NCBI GenBank assembly: GCA_030740295.1
Contig: JASLXP010000819.1
Span: 1 to 16,953, forward strand
Direction of reading: 5' to 3'
Length of the DNA stretch: 16,953 nt
Source of the DNA: Planctomycetota bacterium
GTDB lineage: Bacteria > Planctomycetota > PUPC01 > JACPCR01
Below the pieces are notes generated by a model. It saw nothing but the letters and a program-made list of their open reading frames with translations, made no database searches and had not been told where the DNA came from. The position numbers were made by a program, and so were the translations under genes. Every line of letters starts with the position of its first letter. Positions within the stretch are counted from its first letter, which is position 1. This document shows positions 1,952 through 16,953 of this stretch, one piece after another.

Positions 1952-2851
1952 ATGAATGAACCGATTTTGCACCATCCTGTCATGCTGGAAGAGGTATTGA
2001 ATTTCCTCGAGCCTGCACCGGGAGCTGTATACGTTGACGCTACTCTGGGGGGCGCTTCCTACTCGAGAGCCATCCTCGAAAAGACCAATGGCCGCGCCAC
2101 AGTCGTTGGGCTGGACAGGGACCTCGAGGCTATTGAGGCAGCGTCGCAGAGGTTATCGGAATACGAAACCTTCCACGCGATTCACACCGAGTTCAGCGAC
2201 CTGACCAACGTGCTTCATTCACTGGGCCTGGAAATGATCGACGGTCTGGTCGCTGACCTGGGCGTCTCATCGCCTCAATTCGACCGGCCTGAGCGAGGCT
2301 TCAGTCTGAGGCATGACGGGGATATCGACATGAGAATGGACGCCACTCAGAAAACGACGGCCGCCGACATAGTAAATTATGAGAAACAGGAAGAGCTGGC
2401 CAGAATCCTCTGGGAATACGGCGAAGAACGCTTCTCGCGCCGCCTTGCAAGAAGGATTGTTGATCGGCGGAAGACAAAGAAATTTACGAGCACGGTTGAG
2501 TTAGCGGATTTCATCGCCGCGACCATACCGGGCAAGCGGGGCCACATTCACCCCGCCACCAGAACTTTCCAGGCTCTCCGGATCGCGACCAACAACGAGT
2601 TGGCCGAGTTGGAGTGCCTCTGCAACCAGGCAGAACAAACGGTGAAACCGTCCGGAGTGTTCATATGTGTCAGCTTTCATTCACTGGAAGACCGACTTGT
2701 TAAACAGGCTCATCGACAGAGAAACCAGGACGGAAAGCCGCTCTGGGAGCTGCTGACTCGCCGTCCTGCCACGCCGTCCGCTGACGAAAAATCAGTCAAC
2801 CCACGAAGCCGCAGCGCGAAGCTCCGCGCTGCCAGAAGATTAGGACCATGA
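1952..2851 (+). CDS. rsmH: RsmH, 16S rRNA (cytosine-1402 N4) methyltransferase
   Basis: RsmH (MraW) uses S-adenosylmethionine to methylate N4 of C1402 in 16S rRNA, in the decoding centre of the small subunit. The protein has 299 residues from the chosen ATG. It shows the family landmarks in order: HHPVMLEEVL near the N-terminus, the SAM-binding DATLGGASYSRAIL (29-42), GLDRD, VADLGVSSPQFDRPERGFSL with DMRMD after it, HPATRTFQALRI, and FHSLEDRLVK near the C-terminus. The basic tail (SRSRSAKLRAARR) is also typical. The start at 1952 is preferred over a GTG at 1943 because of the ribosome site. The stop overlaps the next gene by 4 bp (ATGA, 2848-2851), implying coupled translation. Confidence 0.96.
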   Translation: MNEPILHHPVMLEEVLNFLEPAPGAVYVDATLGGASYSRAILEKTNGRATVVGLDRDLEAIEAASQRLSEYETFHAIHTEFSDLTNVLHSLGLEMIDGLVADLGVSSPQFDRPERGFSLRHDGDIDMRMDATQKTTAADIVNYEKQEELARILWEYGEERFSRRLARRIVDRRKTKKFTSTVELADFIAATIPGKRGHIHPATRTFQALRIATNNELAELECLCNQAEQTVKPSGVFICVSFHSLEDRLVKQAHRQRNQDGKPLWELLTRRPATPSADEKSVNPRSRSAKLRAARRLGP

Positions 2852-3114
2852 TTCGAGTTGTTTTTGTTTTACAGATTCTTGCCGCCCTTTCCCTTGGGTG
2901 CCAGGCGATTGCGCTCAGGGGCGAAGTCTGGCGTAACGGCCATGAGCTCGCCCAGTTCATTGAGCGCGAGGTCGAGCTTCGTGCTGCACATCAGGAGCTC
3001 GAGCTGATTCTCTCCGAAGAAAGCATGCCCAGCCGTCTCCGTGACCGGGCAACTCGAATGAACATTCCCTTGGAAAGCGAACCAGCAGACCAGCAGGTTG
3101 AGAGCAACCTGTGA
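2848..3114 (+). CDS. ftsL: FtsL-like small bitopic division protein
   Basis: This 88-residue protein has a hydrophobic segment at about residues 4-22. A charged helical stretch follows, likely a coiled coil (GHELAQFIEREVELRAAH and on), ending in RDRATRMNIPLE. A similar RA...G/N-hydrophobic motif closes many FtsL proteins. Size, topology and position between rsmH and ftsI all fit FtsL, which with FtsB and FtsQ activates the septal synthase FtsW-FtsI. FtsL proteins are poorly conserved, so the call rests mainly on architecture and context. It starts within the rsmH stop (ATGA overlap). The last 18 coding bases form a perfect 7-bp hairpin with an AGAG loop (3094-3111) directly before the TGA stop, and an unusually long non-coding gap follows before ftsI. 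Confidence 0.8.
   Translation: MIRVVFVLQILAALSLGCQAIALRGEVWRNGHELAQFIEREVELRAAHQELELILSEESMPSRLRDRATRMNIPLESEPADQQVESNL
3094..3111 (+). repeat. Perfect hairpin at the end of ftsL
   Basis: CAGGTTG-AGAG-CAACCTG forms a 7-bp stem with a 4-nt loop immediately before the TGA stop at 3112. No T-run follows, so it is not a standard intrinsic terminator. It may protect a processed 3' end or belong to the structured segment that begins here. Confidence 0.5.
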
Positions 3115-3509
3115 TCTCGCCTTCAACGGTTCATTGAAAACTTCTGCACTCCACCGACCCCCTGTCGTGTGGAAGTGCTTAAGAATGTGTGTTGGGTGAA
3201 CCCAGCGAATCGACGGCTTTGCAGGCGTCGAACTAAGCCAAGCATCAGTCCGAAAGGGGCTCGCGTGATTGAGCAGAGAGATTTTCACGTCGAGGCGGGC
3301 TGGTGTGAAGTTCCGGCCAGGCGCCATGCGTCAGGCTGTTGATTCGCTGGTCACCTTTTAATGCACCCTCTCGCCTGACCCACCAGTTCCGCCTCTTCTG
3401 CGCGTAAGGGGCGGCCCAGGAATGACCGCCACTATCAGATCTCAACAGCCCCATGGGCTGGAGCGTTTCGCAAGACGCGACGCTCCGCACTTTTATCGGT
3501 GGACTCGCC
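3115..3509 (+). other. Non-coding, hairpin-rich gap between ftsL and ftsI; candidate structured RNA or leader
   Basis: These 395 bp hold no plausible gene but several strong inverted repeats, readable as + strand RNA. 3146-3178: 13 pairs (GCACT/AGTGC, CCAC/GTGG, CGAC/GTCG) with two single-base bulges and loop CCCCT. 3191-3206: GTTGGG-TGAA-CCCAGC. 3210-3231: TCGACG/CGTCGA. 3247-3261: AGTCC-GAAA-GGGGCT with a GNRA loop. 3298-3318: GGCTGG/CCGGCC. 3330-3336 with 3373-3379: GTCAGGC/GCCTGAC. 3389-3414: CCGCCTCTT/AAGGGGCGG, 9 pairs. 3446-3460: CAGCCC/GGGCTG. 3460-3486: GGAGCG-TT-TCGC/GCGA-CGCTCC, 10 pairs. No T-runs follow. I compared it by eye with RNase P RNA, tmRNA, SRP RNA, tRNA and the common riboswitch cores, and found no match. 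It could be a regulatory leader for ftsI, an independent small RNA, or a processing and pausing region. Confidence 0.45.
3498..3503 (+). promoter_or_regulatory. Ribosome binding site that decides the ftsI start
   Basis: GGTGGA lies 6 nt before the ATG at 3510. The upstream in-frame ATG at 3453 has no Shine-Dalgarno sequence and sits in a hairpin loop (3446-3460), so 3510 is preferred. Confidence 0.5.
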
Positions 3510-5372
3510 ATGCCCGGTCAGGAATCAGGTATTCAGTCTCAAGCAGTCTCGCGTACCGGCGCCCTGCTGATGGCGGTGCTTTCAGTGGGCGTCCTGATGG
3601 TCGTCGGCCGTACGGTCCGCTTGCAGTATTATCCTCAGCGGCGCCTTTCAGCTATGGCGTTTCGCCAGCACGATCGCCTCATAAAGAAGCGTGCCTATCG
3701 GGGGTCGATTTTCGATAGAAACAGACGCGTGCTGGTCAGTTCAGTAAATGCCTACTCCGTTTTTATCGATCCCGCCGCGCTGAGACGACCTGAAGAACCA
3801 CGGCTGTCAGATGCAGACAAACTCGACCGGCTCGAGTCCCTCTCCCGCGCGCTCGCGATTGCTCTTGAAATCGAATTCTCAGAACTGTGGGATCGCGTTC
3901 GAACGCGGGGTCACACACGTTTCATCTGGGTAGCGAGAAGGCTCGATACAGACAGAGAGCTCAGATTGCGATCCCTGATGGAGAACGGAGGAACTGCAGA
4001 AGATTATCGGGGTGCCTTCTTTACGACCGAACCCAAGCGTGAATATCCGCTAGGGTCACTTGCGGGACAGGTGCTTGGCGCCATTGGCAATCATGGAGAG
4101 GGCATGAGCGGCATCGAATCCAGTTGGGAGGCCGAGCTCGGCGGCGCCAACGGATTTCAATCCGTGAAGAGTGATGTTCGCAATCGCAGAACTGCTTTGC
4201 CCGATCTCGACTACGTTCCTTCCCGTGCCGGCCGCAATGTCCATCTGACGATTGATGCCAACGTGCAGGAAATCGTGGAAAGGGAGCTTGAACGACTTTA
4301 TGAAGATTCCCAGCCGATTAGCACATTCGGCATCGTCACCGATCCCAATACCGGCGACATCCTCGCGCTGGCGGCCGCGCCCTCCTTCGATCCGGATAAG
4401 TGGGAAAACTATCGGTGGGGTGAAAGACAGCAACTGCGTACTGCGCGCCCGGTGACTGACTGCTACGAAGTCGGTTCCGTCATCAAGCCAATCGTCGCCG
4501 CATCTGCCGTTTACGCGGGCCTGCTCAATCTGAATACCCCCATTCACTGCGGCAACGGCGTCGTCAGAACCGATGACGGTGTCACCCACCATGATCATCA
4601 TCCCTACGGCTCTCTCACCGTGACGAAAGTCCTGGCCAAGTCCTCCAACATTGGCGCCTACCGAATCATGAAAGCCTTGGGCCGAAGACGGCTCAACAAT
4701 TACTTCTCAGACTTCGGTTTCGGAAGAAAAACCGGGGTCACTTTCCCAGGCGAATCGGCAGGGAAACTCTGGACAGTTGATGAATGGAAAGATAAGAAAA
4801 TCAGCTCGTGGAATCTTGCCATCGGCTACGGCACCGCAATCAGTCCCCTTCAACTGGCGATGGCATATGGCGTCATCGCCAATGGCGGAAACCTCATGAC
4901 GCCGAGGCTGGTCACGCGTGTAGAAAATGAAAACGGTGATGGGGTGCAGGATTACCCGGTCAACGTAACGCGAAGAGTGATCGGCCGGACCATCTCGAAG
5001 CGAATGCGCGAGGCTCTGGAAACTGTCGTGCGTAAAGGTGCCACCGGGCGCAGAGCCATGGTCGAAGGATACCGGCTCGCGGGCAAGACCGGCACTGCGG
5101 AAAAACTTCTTCCCGTGAGAGATGAAAGTGGCAACCTCGTTCGGAACAGGCAAGGCAGAACAGTCCACAAATACGCCAAGGATAAACACGTGGCCAGCTT
5201 CGTCGGTTTCGCGCCGGTCGATGCGCCACGATTACTTGTCTACGTGGGCGTCGATCAGCCCACTGGAGACCTTCAGTTCGGCGGCCAGGTCGCTGCCCCG
5301 GCGGTCAGAAACATCTTCATAGAGCTCTTCGAGTACTACCACATCAAGCCTGACAGGGAGACCGCGCATTGA
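3510..5372 (+). CDS. ftsI: FtsI, septal peptidoglycan transpeptidase (class B penicillin-binding protein)
   Basis: FtsI cross-links septal peptidoglycan in the periplasm as partner of FtsW. From the chosen ATG it has 620 residues. A short cytoplasmic tail leads to one membrane helix (about 15-35; TGALLMAVLSVGVLMVVG). A dimerisation/pedestal domain follows, starting with the typical RGSIFDRNRRVL. The transpeptidase domain has all three active-site motifs: S323-V-I-K, S378-S-N, and K526-T-G in AGKTGTAEK. There is no C-terminal PASTA domain, so it resembles Gram-negative FtsI rather than sporulation SpoVD. An alternative ATG at 3453 would add 19 residues but lacks a ribosome site. The stop is shared with the TTG start of murE (5369-5372). 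It is the first gene after the hairpin-rich gap, so its expression may be set separately from mraZ-rsmH-ftsL. Confidence 0.95.
   Translation: MPGQESGIQSQAVSRTGALLMAVLSVGVLMVVGRTVRLQYYPQRRLSAMAFRQHDRLIKKRAYRGSIFDRNRRVLVSSVNAYSVFIDPAALRRPEEPRLSDADKLDRLESLSRALAIALEIEFSELWDRVRTRGHTRFIWVARRLDTDRELRLRSLMENGGTAEDYRGAFFTTEPKREYPLGSLAGQVLGAIGNHGEGMSGIESSWEAELGGANGFQSVKSDVRNRRTALPDLDYVPSRAGRNVHLTIDANVQEIVERELERLYEDSQPISTFGIVTDPNTGDILALAAAPSFDPDKWENYRWGERQQLRTARPVTDCYEVGSVIKPIVAASAVYAGLLNLNTPIHCGNGVVRTDDGVTHHDHHPYGSLTVTKVLAKSSNIGAYRIMKALGRRRLNNYFSDFGFGRKTGVTFPGESAGKLWTVDEWKDKKISSWNLAIGYGTAISPLQLAMAYGVIANGGNLMTPRLVTRVENENGDGVQDYPVNVTRRVIGRTISKRMREALETVVRKGATGRRAMVEGYRLAGKTGTAEKLLPVRDESGNLVRNRQGRTVHKYAKDKHVASFVGFAPVDAPRLLVYVGVDQPTGDLQFGGQVAAPAVRNIFIELFEYYHIKPDRETAH
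5355..5360 (+). promoter_or_regulatory. Ribosome binding site supporting a TTG start for murE
   Basis: AGGGAG lies 8 nt before the TTG at 5369. No ATG or GTG occurs in that frame near the conserved N-terminus, so the rare TTG start is well supported. Confidence 0.65.
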
Positions 5373-12863: not shown

Positions 12864-12868
12864 AGGGG

Positions 12869-12884
12869 TGTTGGAGTGTTGGAG
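12869..12884. repeat. Short tandem repeat TGTTGGAG x2
   Basis: Two perfect copies of TGTTGGAG lie 5 bp after the murB stop, followed by the similar GAAGGAG. It may be part of the palindromic element that follows or simple low-complexity spacer. Confidence 0.6.
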
Positions 12885-12911
12885 GAAGGAGCGAAGTTAG
12901 CATCTGAGTCT

Positions 12912-13033
12912 CCGCCCTCTTAATCGTTATCTTAATCCTTCTCCTAATCGGGATTGCCGAGATCGCGCTTTACAGCGCCGGAAAGGCCAAAATCCGATTA
13001 TGAGAAGGATTAAGATAGCGATTAAGAAGGCGG
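12912..13033. repeat. Long AATC-rich inverted repeat (MITE- or REP-like element)
   Basis: Bases 12912-12952 pair with 12993-13033 over 41 positions: 37 Watson-Crick pairs, two G-T and two mismatches (12917/13028 and 12944/13001). The 40-base loop has its own GCGC-TTTACA-GCGC hairpin (12965-12978). The arms are built from repeated TTAATC/CTAATC words (CTTAATC, TTAATCC, CTAATCG). The matching arms, position in the only sizeable gap of the murF-ftsQ stretch and repetitive wording suggest a small mobile or dispersed palindromic element. No transposase is present and no clear target duplication is seen. Copies elsewhere in the genome would confirm it. Confidence 0.75.
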
Positions 13034-13052
13034 TCTCCCACACCGCCCTCTT
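13024..13052 (+). terminator. Terminator-like hairpin before ddl
   Basis: AAGAAGGCGGT (13024-13034) can pair with ACCGCCCTCTT (13042-13052) around a 7-nt loop, 11 positions with one mismatch. Only TTCTG follows, so the T-run is poor; another T-rich stretch comes at 13063-13072. Its left arm is also the right arm of the long inverted repeat, so the two folds exclude each other. Confidence 0.35.
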
Positions 13053-13091
13053 TCTGAAGACTGTTTTCTTTTACTGATCGGGGAGACTGAA

Positions 13092-14039
13092 ATGAACGCT
13101 GATACCCATGTTGTTGTGATGATGGGAGGTTTTTCGTCTGAGCGTGAGATCTCCCTGAAGACAGGGCAGGGAGTGGTCGCCGCTCTTGAGTCGAAAGGCT
13201 TCTTAGTTTCCCGGTTCGATGTCAGGGATGGCGGATTGACAGGGTTCGATCCCGCGGGTGTTGATGCAGTCTTCATTGCACTGCATGGCGAATTTGGTGA
13301 AGACGGTGGAGTCCAGGATCGCCTTGAACATTTTGGCTTGCCGTACACCGGTTCAGACCCCGAGGCCAGCCGCCTTGCGATGGACAAAGTGATGGCAAAA
13401 GAACGCTTCGAGGAGGCCGGCCTGAAGACGCCGCCCGGCGTGGTGGTCGACTGTCTGGCGGATATGCCCGACAGCCTGCTCGATGTATCCAGGCTCGGAT
13501 TTCCGTTGGTGGTGAAGCCGGTGTCCGAAGGCTCCAGCATCGGAGTCAATCTGGCGCGCCATCATGCTGAGCTTTCGGATGCGATAAAAGAAGCTGCCCA
13601 GTTTCAGCAGGGCATCCTCATTGAAAAGTTCATCCCCGGCCGGGAACTGACCGTCAGCATCCTGGGCGATGAACCGACCTGTATCATCGAAATTCACTCG
13701 CCGATGTTCCTCTTTGATTTCGAATCCAAGTACGACGGCTCCAGCAAGTATTTGGTACCTGCGCCAATCGAACCGAAACATGCCTCGAGAATCCAGCAGG
13801 CAGCCCTGACCGCGCACCAGTCCCTCGGCTGCCGGGATATGTCGCGGGTGGACATCCGTCTCAAGCCGGATGATCCGGAGCCATTCATCCTGGAGGTTAA
13901 CACCATTCCGGGCATGACCGCGATGAGCCTCCTGCCAATGGCCGCAGCCCATGACGGGCTGAGCTACGCGGATCTTTGTGAACAGATGATTCATCGTTGC
14001 CTGGCGAGGGCAGAGGTCCGTGAACCAGCCTTGGTCTGA
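13092..14039 (+). CDS. ddl: Ddl, D-alanine-D-alanine ligase
   Basis: Ddl is a cytoplasmic ATP-grasp enzyme joining two D-alanines into the dipeptide used by MurF. The 315-residue length is typical of the DdlB group. Visible motifs are VVMMGGFSSEREISLKTG (9-26), ALHGEFGEDGGVQ, YTGSDPEASRLAMDK, FPLVVKPVSEGSSIGV (the ATP-grasp lysine and glycine loop), the omega-loop SKYDGSSKYLVPA, and ILEVNTIPGMT with the metal-binding Glu and Asn. The residues in the omega loop fit D-Ala-D-Ala rather than D-Ala-D-Lac formation, though this is by eye. GGGGAG (13080-13085) lies 6 nt before the ATG, a stronger ribosome site than most in the cluster. Together with the palindromic gap upstream, this suggests partly independent expression. 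Confidence 0.95.
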   Translation: MNADTHVVVMMGGFSSEREISLKTGQGVVAALESKGFLVSRFDVRDGGLTGFDPAGVDAVFIALHGEFGEDGGVQDRLEHFGLPYTGSDPEASRLAMDKVMAKERFEEAGLKTPPGVVVDCLADMPDSLLDVSRLGFPLVVKPVSEGSSIGVNLARHHAELSDAIKEAAQFQQGILIEKFIPGRELTVSILGDEPTCIIEIHSPMFLFDFESKYDGSSKYLVPAPIEPKHASRIQQAALTAHQSLGCRDMSRVDIRLKPDDPEPFILEVNTIPGMTAMSLLPMAAAHDGLSYADLCEQMIHRCLARAEVREPALV

Positions 14040-14064
14040 ATCCAGCAAATGGAAAATTGAAACC

Positions 14065-15036
14065 ATGCCACGTCAAAGAAAAAAACCAGAAGCCCCACGA
14101 AAGCCACCCGCCTCAGCAAACAGAAACCGAGCTTCAAGAACTCGGAAATCCGCTGCATCCGACGAGCCGAAACAGCCGGGCTGGTGGAGTAGAAATCCGG
14201 AATCCCGGCGGTTCATCTTCCAGCTTGTTGTTCCGTTGGCTGCGCTCATGGGTGTGCTTACTTTTGGAACCAGGATGGCTTTCGCTTACGTGCGCACGAT
14301 GCCGCAGTTCCGCGTGGATGCCGGCCACCTGGTTATGGACAACCGGCCGCACTGGCTGAAACAGGATGCCGCGCAGGCCATTCACATGAAGGCATTTCGT
14401 CGTCAGGATATTTCCATTTTCGATCCTGATCTCGTGCCGAAGGTGCGTTCGGAATATGAAAGAGATCCGTGGGTGCTGGAGGTCGTCTCTATTTCGAAGA
14501 TGTTCCCCAATCAGGTGAATGTCAGCCTCGTGCTTCGTGAGCCTATCGCCCGCGTCAGCAGCGAGCTTGGTACCTATCTGCTCGATATCCACGGTATCGT
14601 GGTAGACATCCTGAATCCTTCGCATGACATGAACTACCGTCACCTCCCCACCATCGCAGGCTGGGAATCTGAGCCGCCGCTCCGGGGAGAACTGTGGGAC
14701 GATCCGTCTATCACTGCAGCGCTCGGTGTGTCGAAGGTGTTGCTGGATGAAAAGCTCACCGAGGAACTGGCGGTGGACCAGATCAACGTGGCCAACTTCA
14801 AAGGCAACCAGGATCCCCGAGAAAGTGAGATCGTCATTCACCTGCCGGACGGCAACCGGATCCACTGGGGTCGCGGCGTGAACACTTACGGCGAAGTGCC
14901 GCTTCACGAGAAGCTGACGAAGATCAGAGAGTGCGCCGCAAAGGCGCAGGGCGGCGTCAATCTGGATTGGATCATCCGGTATCCGGAGAAAACGCTCTAC
15001 CGGACCAGGGAAACCGTTGACGGGGCACGGCGGTAA
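14065..15036 (+). CDS. ftsQ: FtsQ/DivIB-like division protein
   Basis: This protein has a basic cytoplasmic tail rich in Lys, Arg and Pro, then one membrane helix (about residues 50-76, FIFQLVVPLAALMGVLTFGT onward). Next comes a periplasmic POTRA-like region with the typical order: DISIFDPDLV, RDPWVLEVVSISKMFPNQVNVSL, REPIARV, YLLDIHGIVVD. A C-terminal beta domain ends WIIRYPEKTLY. FtsQ links FtsL/FtsB to the septal synthase. Sequence conservation is low in the family; topology, motif order and position after ddl support it. The ATG at 14065 gives 323 residues. A GTG at 14020, inside ddl and 3 nt after AGAGG, would give 338, so the start is uncertain. ftsA and ftsZ, which usually follow, are absent here. 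Confidence 0.87.
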   Translation: MPRQRKKPEAPRKPPASANRNRASRTRKSAASDEPKQPGWWSRNPESRRFIFQLVVPLAALMGVLTFGTRMAFAYVRTMPQFRVDAGHLVMDNRPHWLKQDAAQAIHMKAFRRQDISIFDPDLVPKVRSEYERDPWVLEVVSISKMFPNQVNVSLVLREPIARVSSELGTYLLDIHGIVVDILNPSHDMNYRHLPTIAGWESEPPLRGELWDDPSITAALGVSKVLLDEKLTEELAVDQINVANFKGNQDPRESEIVIHLPDGNRIHWGRGVNTYGEVPLHEKLTKIRECAAKAQGGVNLDWIIRYPEKTLYRTRETVDGARR

Positions 15037-15080
15037 GGGGTAAGTTCTCGGCCATCTGTCTTCTTCCGCCTTCATGAAGC

Positions 15081-15098
15081 GGTCGCGGACCCCGCGCC
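15081..15098 (+). terminator. GC-rich hairpin after ftsQ, possible weak terminator
   Basis: GG-T-CGCGG-ACC-CCGCG-CC forms 7 GC pairs with one bulge 45 bp after the ftsQ stop. A TCTTTT run comes 6 nt later at 15105-15110, so it is a poor match to a standard terminator. It may mark the end of the dcw transcript. Confidence 0.25.
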
Positions 15099-15158
15099 AC
15101 GGGATCTTTTGCGGAAAAGACTACCTCAGTCTGAATACTTCCCCCCAGGAATCACAAC

Positions 15159-15935
15159 ATGCCAGAAAACTTACTTTCATGCCGTCCTCAGAGCTTCGGT
15201 AAGGCCGGGCATCGCGCGTACGAAGAAATGCAGCGGATTGGAATCAAGTACGTCGAAGCGTCTATTGCGCATCCCAGCAAAATGATCGAAGAAAAAGAGA
15301 AGTATGAGGCATTCGGACTTCAGGCTGCGACCATCAGCGGCAAGATAAATATTCAATCTCAAAGCTGCGGGCAGGAATTTGAGCCGTGGGCCCTCGCTTG
15401 CCAGGTGGCAGGTGCGAAGCACATGTTCGTCAGTGTCCATGCCGGAGAGCTTGACCGCCGTCTTGTTTACACCCGTCTCTACGAATGCGGTGAAATCGCC
15501 CGGCAGTATGGCGTCACCATCTGCATGGAAACTCATCCTGATCTGATTACCAATATGGATGTGGCGATCGAGACGATGAAGGGAGTGGACCATCCCAACG
15601 TCCGTGTGAATTTCGACACTGCGAATATCTACTACTACAACGAAGGCATAGACGGCCATGAGGAGCTTAAGAAGATTCTCAATTACGTCGGCGCCATGCA
15701 CCTCAAAGAAACGAACGGCGCTTTCAAGACCTGGTATTTCCCCACCTTTGGCGATGAGCAGGGGGTGGTAAACTGGACCGATACATTTGAACTCCTGAAT
15801 AAAGAGATCGAATTCTTCGGGCCGTTCACCATGGAAATAGAGGGCTGCAAGGATGAACAGTTCGAGGAAGATGATCACATCAAGCGAGTCGAGGATTCAG
15901 TCAATCATCTTCGCTCGCTCGGGCTCGTATCCTGA
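15159..15935 (+). CDS. Sugar phosphate isomerase/epimerase-like TIM-barrel protein (AP endonuclease 2 fold)
   Basis: The 258-residue protein looks like the xylose isomerase-like/IolE-type TIM barrel family. Candidate metal ligands appear at the expected places on successive strands: Glu124 in CMETHPDL, Asp153 in NFDTANIYYY, His181 in MHLKET and Glu226 or Glu228 in MEIEG. FVSVHAGE (residues 90-97) fits an earlier strand. Such enzymes act on sugars or inositol derivatives in the cytoplasm using a divalent metal; the substrate cannot be told. No signal peptide is visible. AGGA lies 8 nt before the ATG. It is 122 bp after ftsQ and 12 bp before the PTS IIA gene, so it probably starts or belongs to a second transcription unit linked to carbohydrate use. 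Confidence 0.8.
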   Translation: MPENLLSCRPQSFGKAGHRAYEEMQRIGIKYVEASIAHPSKMIEEKEKYEAFGLQAATISGKINIQSQSCGQEFEPWALACQVAGAKHMFVSVHAGELDRRLVYTRLYECGEIARQYGVTICMETHPDLITNMDVAIETMKGVDHPNVRVNFDTANIYYYNEGIDGHEELKKILNYVGAMHLKETNGAFKTWYFPTFGDEQGVVNWTDTFELLNKEIEFFGPFTMEIEGCKDEQFEEDDHIKRVEDSVNHLRSLGLVS

Positions 15936-15947
15936 CTGGAAAACCCT

Positions 15948-16424
15948 ATGGCCGACACCCGGGACGAGCGACTGAGCAGTTACCTTGATCCAAACCTGAT
16001 TGACACCGACATGCGTGCCGGCAGCAAGGAGAGCGTCCTGGAGGAGCTTCTTCGAAGGATGGAGGCCCATGGCCGCATCGCAAGTGCGGAGCCCCTGCTT
16101 GCCGAGTATCTAAAGCGCGAGGAAGTGATGTCGACCGGCATCGGCAACGGGCTCGCGGTACCTCACATTCATACGTCACTCGTGGATGATTACTGTGTTG
16201 CCTTCGGCCACTGCAGACAGGGCATTAGCTTCGATGCCCTGGACGGCGAACCGGTCTACCTGGTATTCATGATCGCCGCGGTGGAAGAGACCTCACAAAA
16301 GCATGTCAGACTTGTTTCGGCACTAATGCGCCTGCTGAAAACGCCTGGTGTTCTCGATGCCATCCTGGAAGCGAAGACTCCTGAGTGCGTCATTGAGGCC
16401 TTCAAGAATGCTGAGGCAGAATGA
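15948..16424 (+). CDS. PTS fructose-type EIIA domain protein (PtsN-like)
   Basis: This single-domain EIIA protein has 158 residues, the normal length. The active-site segment is GIGNGLAVPHIHT, with His73 as the phosphorylated residue. The earlier SKESVLEELLRRM helix and EEVMSTGIG are also typical. EIIA proteins take phosphate from HPr and pass it to a sugar-transporting EIIB/EIIC, or act as regulators as PtsN does. No EIIB or EIIC is seen here, so a regulatory role is more likely, but that is inference. The ribosome site is weak (GGAAAA, 4 nt before the ATG). Tight spacing after the isomerase gene suggests co-transcription. Confidence 0.87.
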   Translation: MADTRDERLSSYLDPNLIDTDMRAGSKESVLEELLRRMEAHGRIASAEPLLAEYLKREEVMSTGIGNGLAVPHIHTSLVDDYCVAFGHCRQGISFDALDGEPVYLVFMIAAVEETSQKHVRLVSALMRLLKTPGVLDAILEAKTPECVIEAFKNAEAE

Positions 16425-16469
16425 AACCTGGAATTTCGTAATACGCACAACCCACAGATTCCACCACTC

Positions 16470-16953
16470 ATGCCATCACGTCCCAACATCCTCATCATTC
16501 TCGCTGACGACCACGGTTACGGTGACGTCACCTGCTACGGCGGGCCGAATCTGCAGACGCCGAATCTGGATCGAATCGCTGAGTCTGGAATGCGTTTTAC
16601 GCGATTTTATGCGAATTCGTCTGTGTGCTCGCCAAGCCGGGCTGCGCTGATGACCGGCCGTTATCCCGATCTGGTGGGCGTGCCGGGCGTGATCCGCACA
16701 CACCCTGAAAACAACTGGGGCTACTTTGATCCGGCCGCGATCACGCTGCCGCAGATGATGGGACGCGCCGGTTATACAACCGCGCTGTTTGGTAAGTGGC
16801 ATCTCGGTCTCGACGCCGGCAGCCATCCCTGCGCTCGCGGGTTCGAACACTTCCGCGGCTTCCTCGGCGATATGATGGATGACTACTACACGCATCTTCG
16901 CCACGGCTTCAATTACATGCGGCAGGGCGAGGTCGAGATTCATCCTGAAGGGC
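16470..16953 (+). CDS. Type I (formylglycine) sulfatase, N-terminal part, cut by window edge
   Basis: The frame is open from the ATG to the end of the window, 161 codons, with the C-terminus missing. It begins MPSRPNILIILADDHGYGD, with the metal-binding Asp13 and Asp14. The active-site motif C53-S-P-S-R follows; Cys53 would be converted to formylglycine. TGRYP comes next, then GKWHLG with Lys109 and His111, all standard for arylsulfatase-like enzymes. No signal peptide is visible at this start, so either it is cytoplasmic or an unrecognised upstream start exists; none is in frame with a clear ribosome site. Sulfatases remove sulfate from polysaccharides or aryl esters. Many paralogues are typical of PVC bacteria living on sulfated glycans. 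The gene starts 45 bp after the PTS IIA gene. Confidence 0.92.
   Translation, partial: MPSRPNILIILADDHGYGDVTCYGGPNLQTPNLDRIAESGMRFTRFYANSSVCSPSRAALMTGRYPDLVGVPGVIRTHPENNWGYFDPAAITLPQMMGRAGYTTALFGKWHLGLDAGSHPCARGFEHFRGFLGDMMDDYYTHLRHGFNYMRQGEVEIHPEG

Follow-up and report, generated by a model that had tools for sequence, protein, structure and literature searches.

Why do 395 bp separate ftsL from ftsI in the division and cell wall (dcw) cluster of an uncultured Planctomycetota bacterium, and what might they encode? We asked this of a stretch of 16,953 nucleotides (nt), positions 1 to 16,953 of contig JASLXP010000819.1 in assembly GCA_030740295.1, the whole of which is hereafter called the window. 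A preliminary description, made from the letters alone, had drawn attention to the gap (ftsL stops at 3114 and ftsI probably begins at 3510), had seen no plausible gene in it and had proposed a candidate structured RNA of no recognisable family. We are confident that the interval represents a new structured RNA family within the dcw operon. Its strongest element, absent from the hairpins listed earlier, is a rod of about 165-175 nt that carries a GGGG bulge and a GAGCAGAGA loop above a short stem at its tip (Table 1).

The gap was compared with the locus of a close relative (genome G001; the aligned locus is called L001). The two gaps align over 391 positions at 84% identity and with 14 gap columns, whereas identity between the same two loci falls to 55-61% at third codon positions in mraZ, rsmH, ftsL and ftsI. 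Within the gap, identity reaches 88% over the rod and 98% over 3249-3295. Substitutions are spread evenly across codon positions in all six frames (22/22/19 in one example, against 12/10/38 in the ftsL control), which bears out the earlier view that no plausible gene lies here: no frame has the third-position excess seen in ftsL, and a coding frame was rejected. Together, the even spread and the high identity argue that the constraint acts on nucleotides. Reading frames on the - strand near 3245-3511 end alike in the window and in L001; they were dismissed as genes, their changed codons being 8-9 synonymous against 36-41 non-synonymous.

Read as + strand RNA, the whole gap has a predicted fold of -162.7 kcal/mol (z -3.55, none of 100 shuffles as stable), compared with z -1.73 and 4 of 100 shuffles for the - strand. 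Folded alone, 3187-3357 reaches z -5.5 and the 5' part (3115-3186) z -3.9, with 0 and 2 of 300 shuffles as stable, respectively. The 3' part (3358-3509) is no better than shuffled (z -0.24), yet its sequence is conserved. For the window at large, 198 tiles (99 per strand, 60 shuffles each), whose limits do not coincide with the rod boundaries, gave a mean z of -0.19 (standard deviation 1.18). The two lowest are both strands of 12921-13091 (-7.5 and -6.3), an element separate from the rod, and the next-lowest pair, the strands of 3061-3231 (-4.25 and -2.93), overlaps the gap. Over 3000-3620, 13 inverted pairs were listed, eight of them wholly within the gap and most long-range. The three hairpins singled out in the preliminary description, with 13, 9 and 10 pairs, do appear in the whole-gap fold where it had placed them. 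Their standing as strong elements holds in part, since two of them sit in the 3' third, at z -0.24. The TGAA and GAAA hairpin loops, which it had taken as typical of folded RNA, do not form in the predicted fold, where these bases fall in the rod base and in an internal bulge. The 5' hairpin, folded apart with L001, has 10 consensus pairs, of which three vary and all three are kept, two by two-sided changes. In the whole-gap consensus of the two sequences it is replaced by other pairs, and for this reason we regard the rod alone as stable to the folding method.

A more distant relative tells which part of the rod is held most tightly. When 199 genomes (G001 and relatives) were searched with the L001 gap, two matched: G001 itself and G002, the latter over 29 bases at 93%, between the gene in the ftsL position and ftsI. 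Its FtsI is 43-44% identical, and it shares 23 of the 24 bases of the core GGGGCTCGCGYGATTGAGCAGAGA. Local alignment of G002 scored 43 with the window and 48 with L001, against a maximum of 30 over 200 single-base shuffles of G002. Beyond the core, no piece of the G002 gap, the 3' part included, could be significantly aligned with the window or L001 gaps. Around the core, G002 nonetheless has a predicted rod of ~175 nt whose stem sequence is unrelated, with z -6.4 for 187 nt. Rod z scores in the three genomes are -5.5, -4.3 and -6.4, with 0 of 300 shuffles as stable in each. In MAFFT alignments the 3' strand of G002 is placed wrongly, and this sequence was therefore compared by fold and by model-guided alignment. 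Above the stem CUCGCGYGA, most of the GAGCAGAGA loop is free of pairs in the predicted folds of all three sequences. Most of the GGGG bulge is unpaired too, the exceptions being its third G, which pairs in part in the window and in L001, and its fourth G, which is paired in G002. The spacing between rod and ftsI varies, at about 153, 158 and 364 nt, the G002 start being a guess.

Pairing also distinguishes the strands. The two-sequence consensus rod (window and L001) holds 51 pairs, seven of which vary; with G-U allowed, all seven remain paired in + strand RNA, and none of them would pair in - strand RNA. We consider a test on the window's own rod fold to be fairer: here 11 pairs vary in L001, seven being kept and four broken, where random placement of the changes would be expected to break 6.6 (standard deviation 0.9; P 0.009). 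In the apical stem of the three sequences, which has nine pairs, 26 of 27 cells are paired (96.3%), with one two-sided change from U-A to C-G. The two-sequence consensus also kept 8/8 varied pairs in the 3' part and 19/19 in the whole gap, counts to which we give no weight because RNAalifold picks such pairs. Fold energy, conservation at the nucleotide level, strand-specific pairing and a similar architecture in a distantly related genome uphold the proposal of a candidate structured RNA. The interval proved to be conserved, to fold better than shuffled sequence and to match no known family. Covariation between the two or three sequences compared is sparse, with one two-sided change in the apical stem and two in the 5' hairpin.

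The element is single-copy in G001 and in G002 and, among the genomes examined, confined to one clade. The core pattern, allowing up to three mismatches, matched two of nine genomes of the class, G001 and G002, both with 0 mismatches, and neither this pattern nor model R2 found a copy in the other seven class genomes examined. In a phylum sample of 392 genomes the pattern matched seven: the same two and five with three mismatches. The latter (G116, G078, G303, G266 and G249) were dropped as chance, their 163-nt surroundings having z -0.83 to 0.55; the comparison segments of 163 nt gave -4.55 in G002 and -4.9 in G001. The gap search yielded one match in G001, and the core one match each in G001 and G002. 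An initial model based on the close pair, R1, recovered G001 but not G002 among the 392 genomes (G002 locus 14.4 bits, E 0.15). Because of this miss, R2 was built from all three sequences, which it matches by construction. R2 matched only G001 and G002 among the 392 phylum genomes, and among 40 genomes around G002 it added one weak match (G033; 27.3 bits, E 0.018), which was dropped as chance after its locus was read. The 23-base pattern matched no viral contig.

How might such an RNA work? The preliminary description had offered a leader controlling ftsI or an independent small RNA. The reading that we favour, tentatively and at a little under an even chance, is that the dcw operon encodes a + strand structured RNA which would be excised from the transcript and act via its invariant tip. 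The autonomously folding rod could protect and mark a stable RNA cut from the dcw transcript, the tip would do the work, with a protein or a second RNA bound to it, and cleavage at the rod would leave the levels of ftsL and ftsI mRNA free to differ. Enterobacteria would offer a precedent, since there too this operon yields stable excised RNAs. We place this reading ahead because the tip sequence is almost unchanged, the stems have been replaced and the distance to ftsI varies. Constant spacing would be expected of a switch coupled to the ribosome site of ftsI, and a site serving RNase cleavage alone should not preserve the tip.

Several observations weigh against this preference. Only three sequences are compared, two of them close, and G002 was joined to them by position, architecture and the 24-nt core, its stems not being alignable. 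The same sequences served both to predict the consensus structures and to count pairs, the rod of the close pair has 0 compensatory two-sided changes, and the two-sided change count in the apical stem was reached in 175 of 500 shuffles of the three sequences. The reverse complement of the rod also beats shuffled sequence (z -3.4), and outside the rod the whole-gap two-sequence consensus departs from the single-sequence fold. Finally, the position of the element is constant across the three genomes, as expected of a cis element, and in the close pair conservation extends through the weakly folded 3' part to 3414, which would suit a leader.

These last points lead to a rival that is close behind and, in our judgement, nearly as likely: a cis-acting regulator, in which a protein or small molecule would bind the tip and alter read-through, cleavage or translation of ftsI and the downstream mur genes. 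The same two genes flank the element in 3/3 RNA-bearing genomes, 3357-3414 is conserved in the close pair at 91-92% with 7 gap columns, and a hairpin lies directly before ftsI. In keeping with such a role, scans of stretches of the window and L001 revealed no + strand promoter-like site, and so no hint of a separate transcript, the consensus used being one that may not fit planctomycete promoters. Against it stand the varying distance from rod to ftsI and a 3' part that folds no better than shuffled sequence and cannot be significantly aligned in G002. Nor was a + strand terminator-like site found in window 2700-3700 or L001 4400-5300 in a scan of loops of 3-8, and G002 lacks the TTTT that comes after the rod in the window and L001. 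The order of dcw genes is itself conserved, so that a shared position is weak evidence. Rather unlikely, in our view, is that the rod serves processing or stability only, with an RNase III-type cut separating ftsL from ftsI mRNA and a tip that has no specific partner. The unbroken 18-pair helix of the window fold and the rod of similar length but unrelated stem sequence in G002 would both fit, but this account leaves the near-unchanged 24-nt tip in G002 unexplained while the stems cannot be aligned. That the interval is no functional RNA at all, but the remnant of a lost gene, a mobile palindromic repeat or a chance fold, we consider very improbable. A palindromic repeat with matches in G001 does sit at 12864-13091, and such elements therefore occur in the cluster. 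The element is nevertheless single-copy in G001 and in G002, its constraint far exceeds that of third codon positions with no codon signal in any frame, and it holds the same place in a genome whose FtsI has diverged as far as that of G002.

Another question regards the origin of the element. Of the nine class genomes, all but G006 yielded an FtsI. One clade of the FtsI tree (support 100/99) unites the window, G001, G002, P0001, P0002, P0004, P0005 and P0006, with G002 as its deepest branch under a midpoint root; G003, G004, G005, G007, G008, G009, G012 and G021 lie outside this clade. The element is present in 3/3 clade rows with readable DNA, the clade having eight rows. In G007, G008 and G004 the listed rsmH and ftsI open reading frames (ORFs) are 39-65 nt apart and leave no room for it; the spacing is ~147 nt in G003, and the listed ORFs overlap in G005 and G009. 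A single gain at the base of the clade is the simplest reading. An ftsZ model gave matches in 13 of 14 control genomes and, under its cut-off, in six of the nine class genomes. It had no match in G001, G002 and G006, genomes for which completeness is not given and the last of which also lacks a found FtsI. That the RNA-bearing G001 and G002 are both among them is a coincidence that we treat as a lead only. It would be a long shot to suppose that the new family entered the division operon at the base of a Planctomycetota clade without detected FtsZ, and that its GGGG/GAGCAGAGA tip helps to control septal peptidoglycan synthesis without FtsZ. A clade-specific RNA in mid-operon, in genomes without an ftsZ match, is in any case a small and concrete target for studying the control of division and wall genes in Planctomycetota.

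Table 1. Features of the ftsL-ftsI interval and its neighbours (window coordinates).
Feature	Positions	Strand	Basis
ftsL-like gene, 88 amino acids, upstream neighbour	2848..3114	+	Named mainly by position
Non-coding ftsL-ftsI interval, 395 nt	3115..3509	+	ORFs, fold, conservation, codon-position test
5' hairpin, 13 pairs in window fold	3146..3178	+	Whole-gap fold; 3115-3186 z -3.9
Rod	3194..3356	+	Fold z -5.5 (3187-3357); 88% identity to L001; similar-length rods in L001 and G002
Rod base stem	3194-3199/3351-3356	+	Predicted fold
Rod 18-pair uninterrupted helix	3202-3219/3333-3350	+	Window fold
Rod upper helices, followed by apical stem	3220-3229/3320-3330; 3242-3251/3297-3306	+	Predicted fold
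Conserved core GGGGCTCGCGYGATTGAGCAGAGA at rod tip	3256..3279	+	Identical in L001, 23/24 in G002
Apical hairpin, stem 3260-3268/3285-3294	3260..3294	+	Predicted folds of three sequences
GAGCAGAGA part of apical loop	3271-3279	+	Mostly unpaired in three predicted folds
3' hairpin, 9 pairs	3389..3414	+	Whole-gap fold; 92% identity to L001
Hairpin adjoining ftsI start, 10 pairs	3460..3486	+	Fold; 85% identity to L001, 1 gap
ftsI (penicillin-binding protein), downstream neighbour	3510..5372	+	PF00905 219.8 bits, PF03717 61.9 bits

As a separate observation on the tip, the apical loop segment GCAGAGAG (3274-3281) could pair with CTCTTCTGC (3394-3402), with one bulged base. This possible pseudoknot was spotted by eye only, and we make no claim for it.

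The cluster runs in the order mraZ, rsmH, ftsL-like, gap, ftsI, murE, murF, ftsW, murG, murC, murB, ddl and ftsQ-like. The murE and murF calls rest on Mur-ligase domains plus position, and the ftsQ call on position plus one match far under cut-off. The ftsL-like gene has no Pfam match at E 0.001, and its scores with two NCBIfam FtsL models are both under cut-off (18.5 bits for a cut-off of 55 and 14.7 bits for 42.45). No mraY or murD stands among the ORFs identified in the window, where no search was aimed at either. The window FtsI has its closest protein match, at 95%, in a Planctomycetota metagenome-assembled genome. Its likely start is shared by P0001, and earlier starts are recorded for P0002 and P0003. 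In the public protein P0003 we judge the start to be 63 codons too early (L001 5001-5189), and the resulting N-terminal extension of 63 residues overlaps the 3' part of the conserved non-coding interval. We regard the extension as a start-site artefact, because the window closes that frame with TTTTAA. After the ftsQ-like gene, where ftsA and ftsZ often stand, 14020-16953 encodes a sugar-isomerase-like protein and a phosphotransferase system (PTS) EIIA domain. The murB-ddl gap holds a long near-perfect palindrome at 12864-13091 (z -7.15), parts of which match G001 at eight places on four contigs (E <0.001). These matches give it the look of a dispersed palindromic repeat. The 20-odd bases with which it opens (GGGTGTTGGAGTGTTGGAG-like) have many weaker matches, some of them in tandem with 16-base spacing.

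As far as the window and L001 show, the new family matches none in Rfam. Scans of the window with Rfam 15 returned 0 matches at gathering score, in agreement with the preliminary description, and there were 0 matches up to E 10 over 3000-3620 and 0 up to E 1 in L001. ARAGORN found no transfer RNA or transfer-messenger RNA in the window. The 6S RNA model (RF00013) has no match at the ftsL-ftsI locus of the window or L001; G001 has its 6S RNA on another contig (83.5 bits), and G002 has a 6S-like RNA, also on another contig (C49:75482-75687), at 44.6 bits for a gathering score of 46.4. In our searches of open-licence papers, subscription papers and preprints aside, no title or abstract opening described a structured RNA between ftsL and ftsI.

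How does the rod compare with known systems? Structured RNAs in or before dcw transcripts are already known from proteobacteria. In overall form the rod resembles 6S RNA (187 model positions), likewise a rod-like non-coding RNA of similar length. The mraW RNA motif sits upstream of mraW. This motif (RF01746) is listed for Actinomycetales (PMC2864571). It is like our element in being a predicted structured RNA tied to the dcw region, and differs in its lineage; the Rfam scans of the window and of 3000-3620 gave no match. In enterobacteria, a stable RNA of 173 nt comes from ftsI, in a part more conserved than the remaining gene (PMC6156199); this ftsI-decRNA was later named FtsO and shown to sponge the small RNA RybB (PMC7815308). 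FtsO lies inside the ftsI coding sequence, whereas the rod is non-coding, stands before ftsI and belongs to another phylum, and the two are likened by description only. In Rhodobacteraceae, UpsM forms the 5' leader RNA of the dcw cluster; it lies upstream of mraZ and ends at a Rho-independent terminator (PMC5089854). The rod differs in sitting after ftsL. Our scans (loops 3-8) showed no + strand terminator-like site, and TTTT comes after the rod in the window and L001. Like UpsM, the rod would be a structured non-coding RNA of the dcw transcript that is confined to one lineage.
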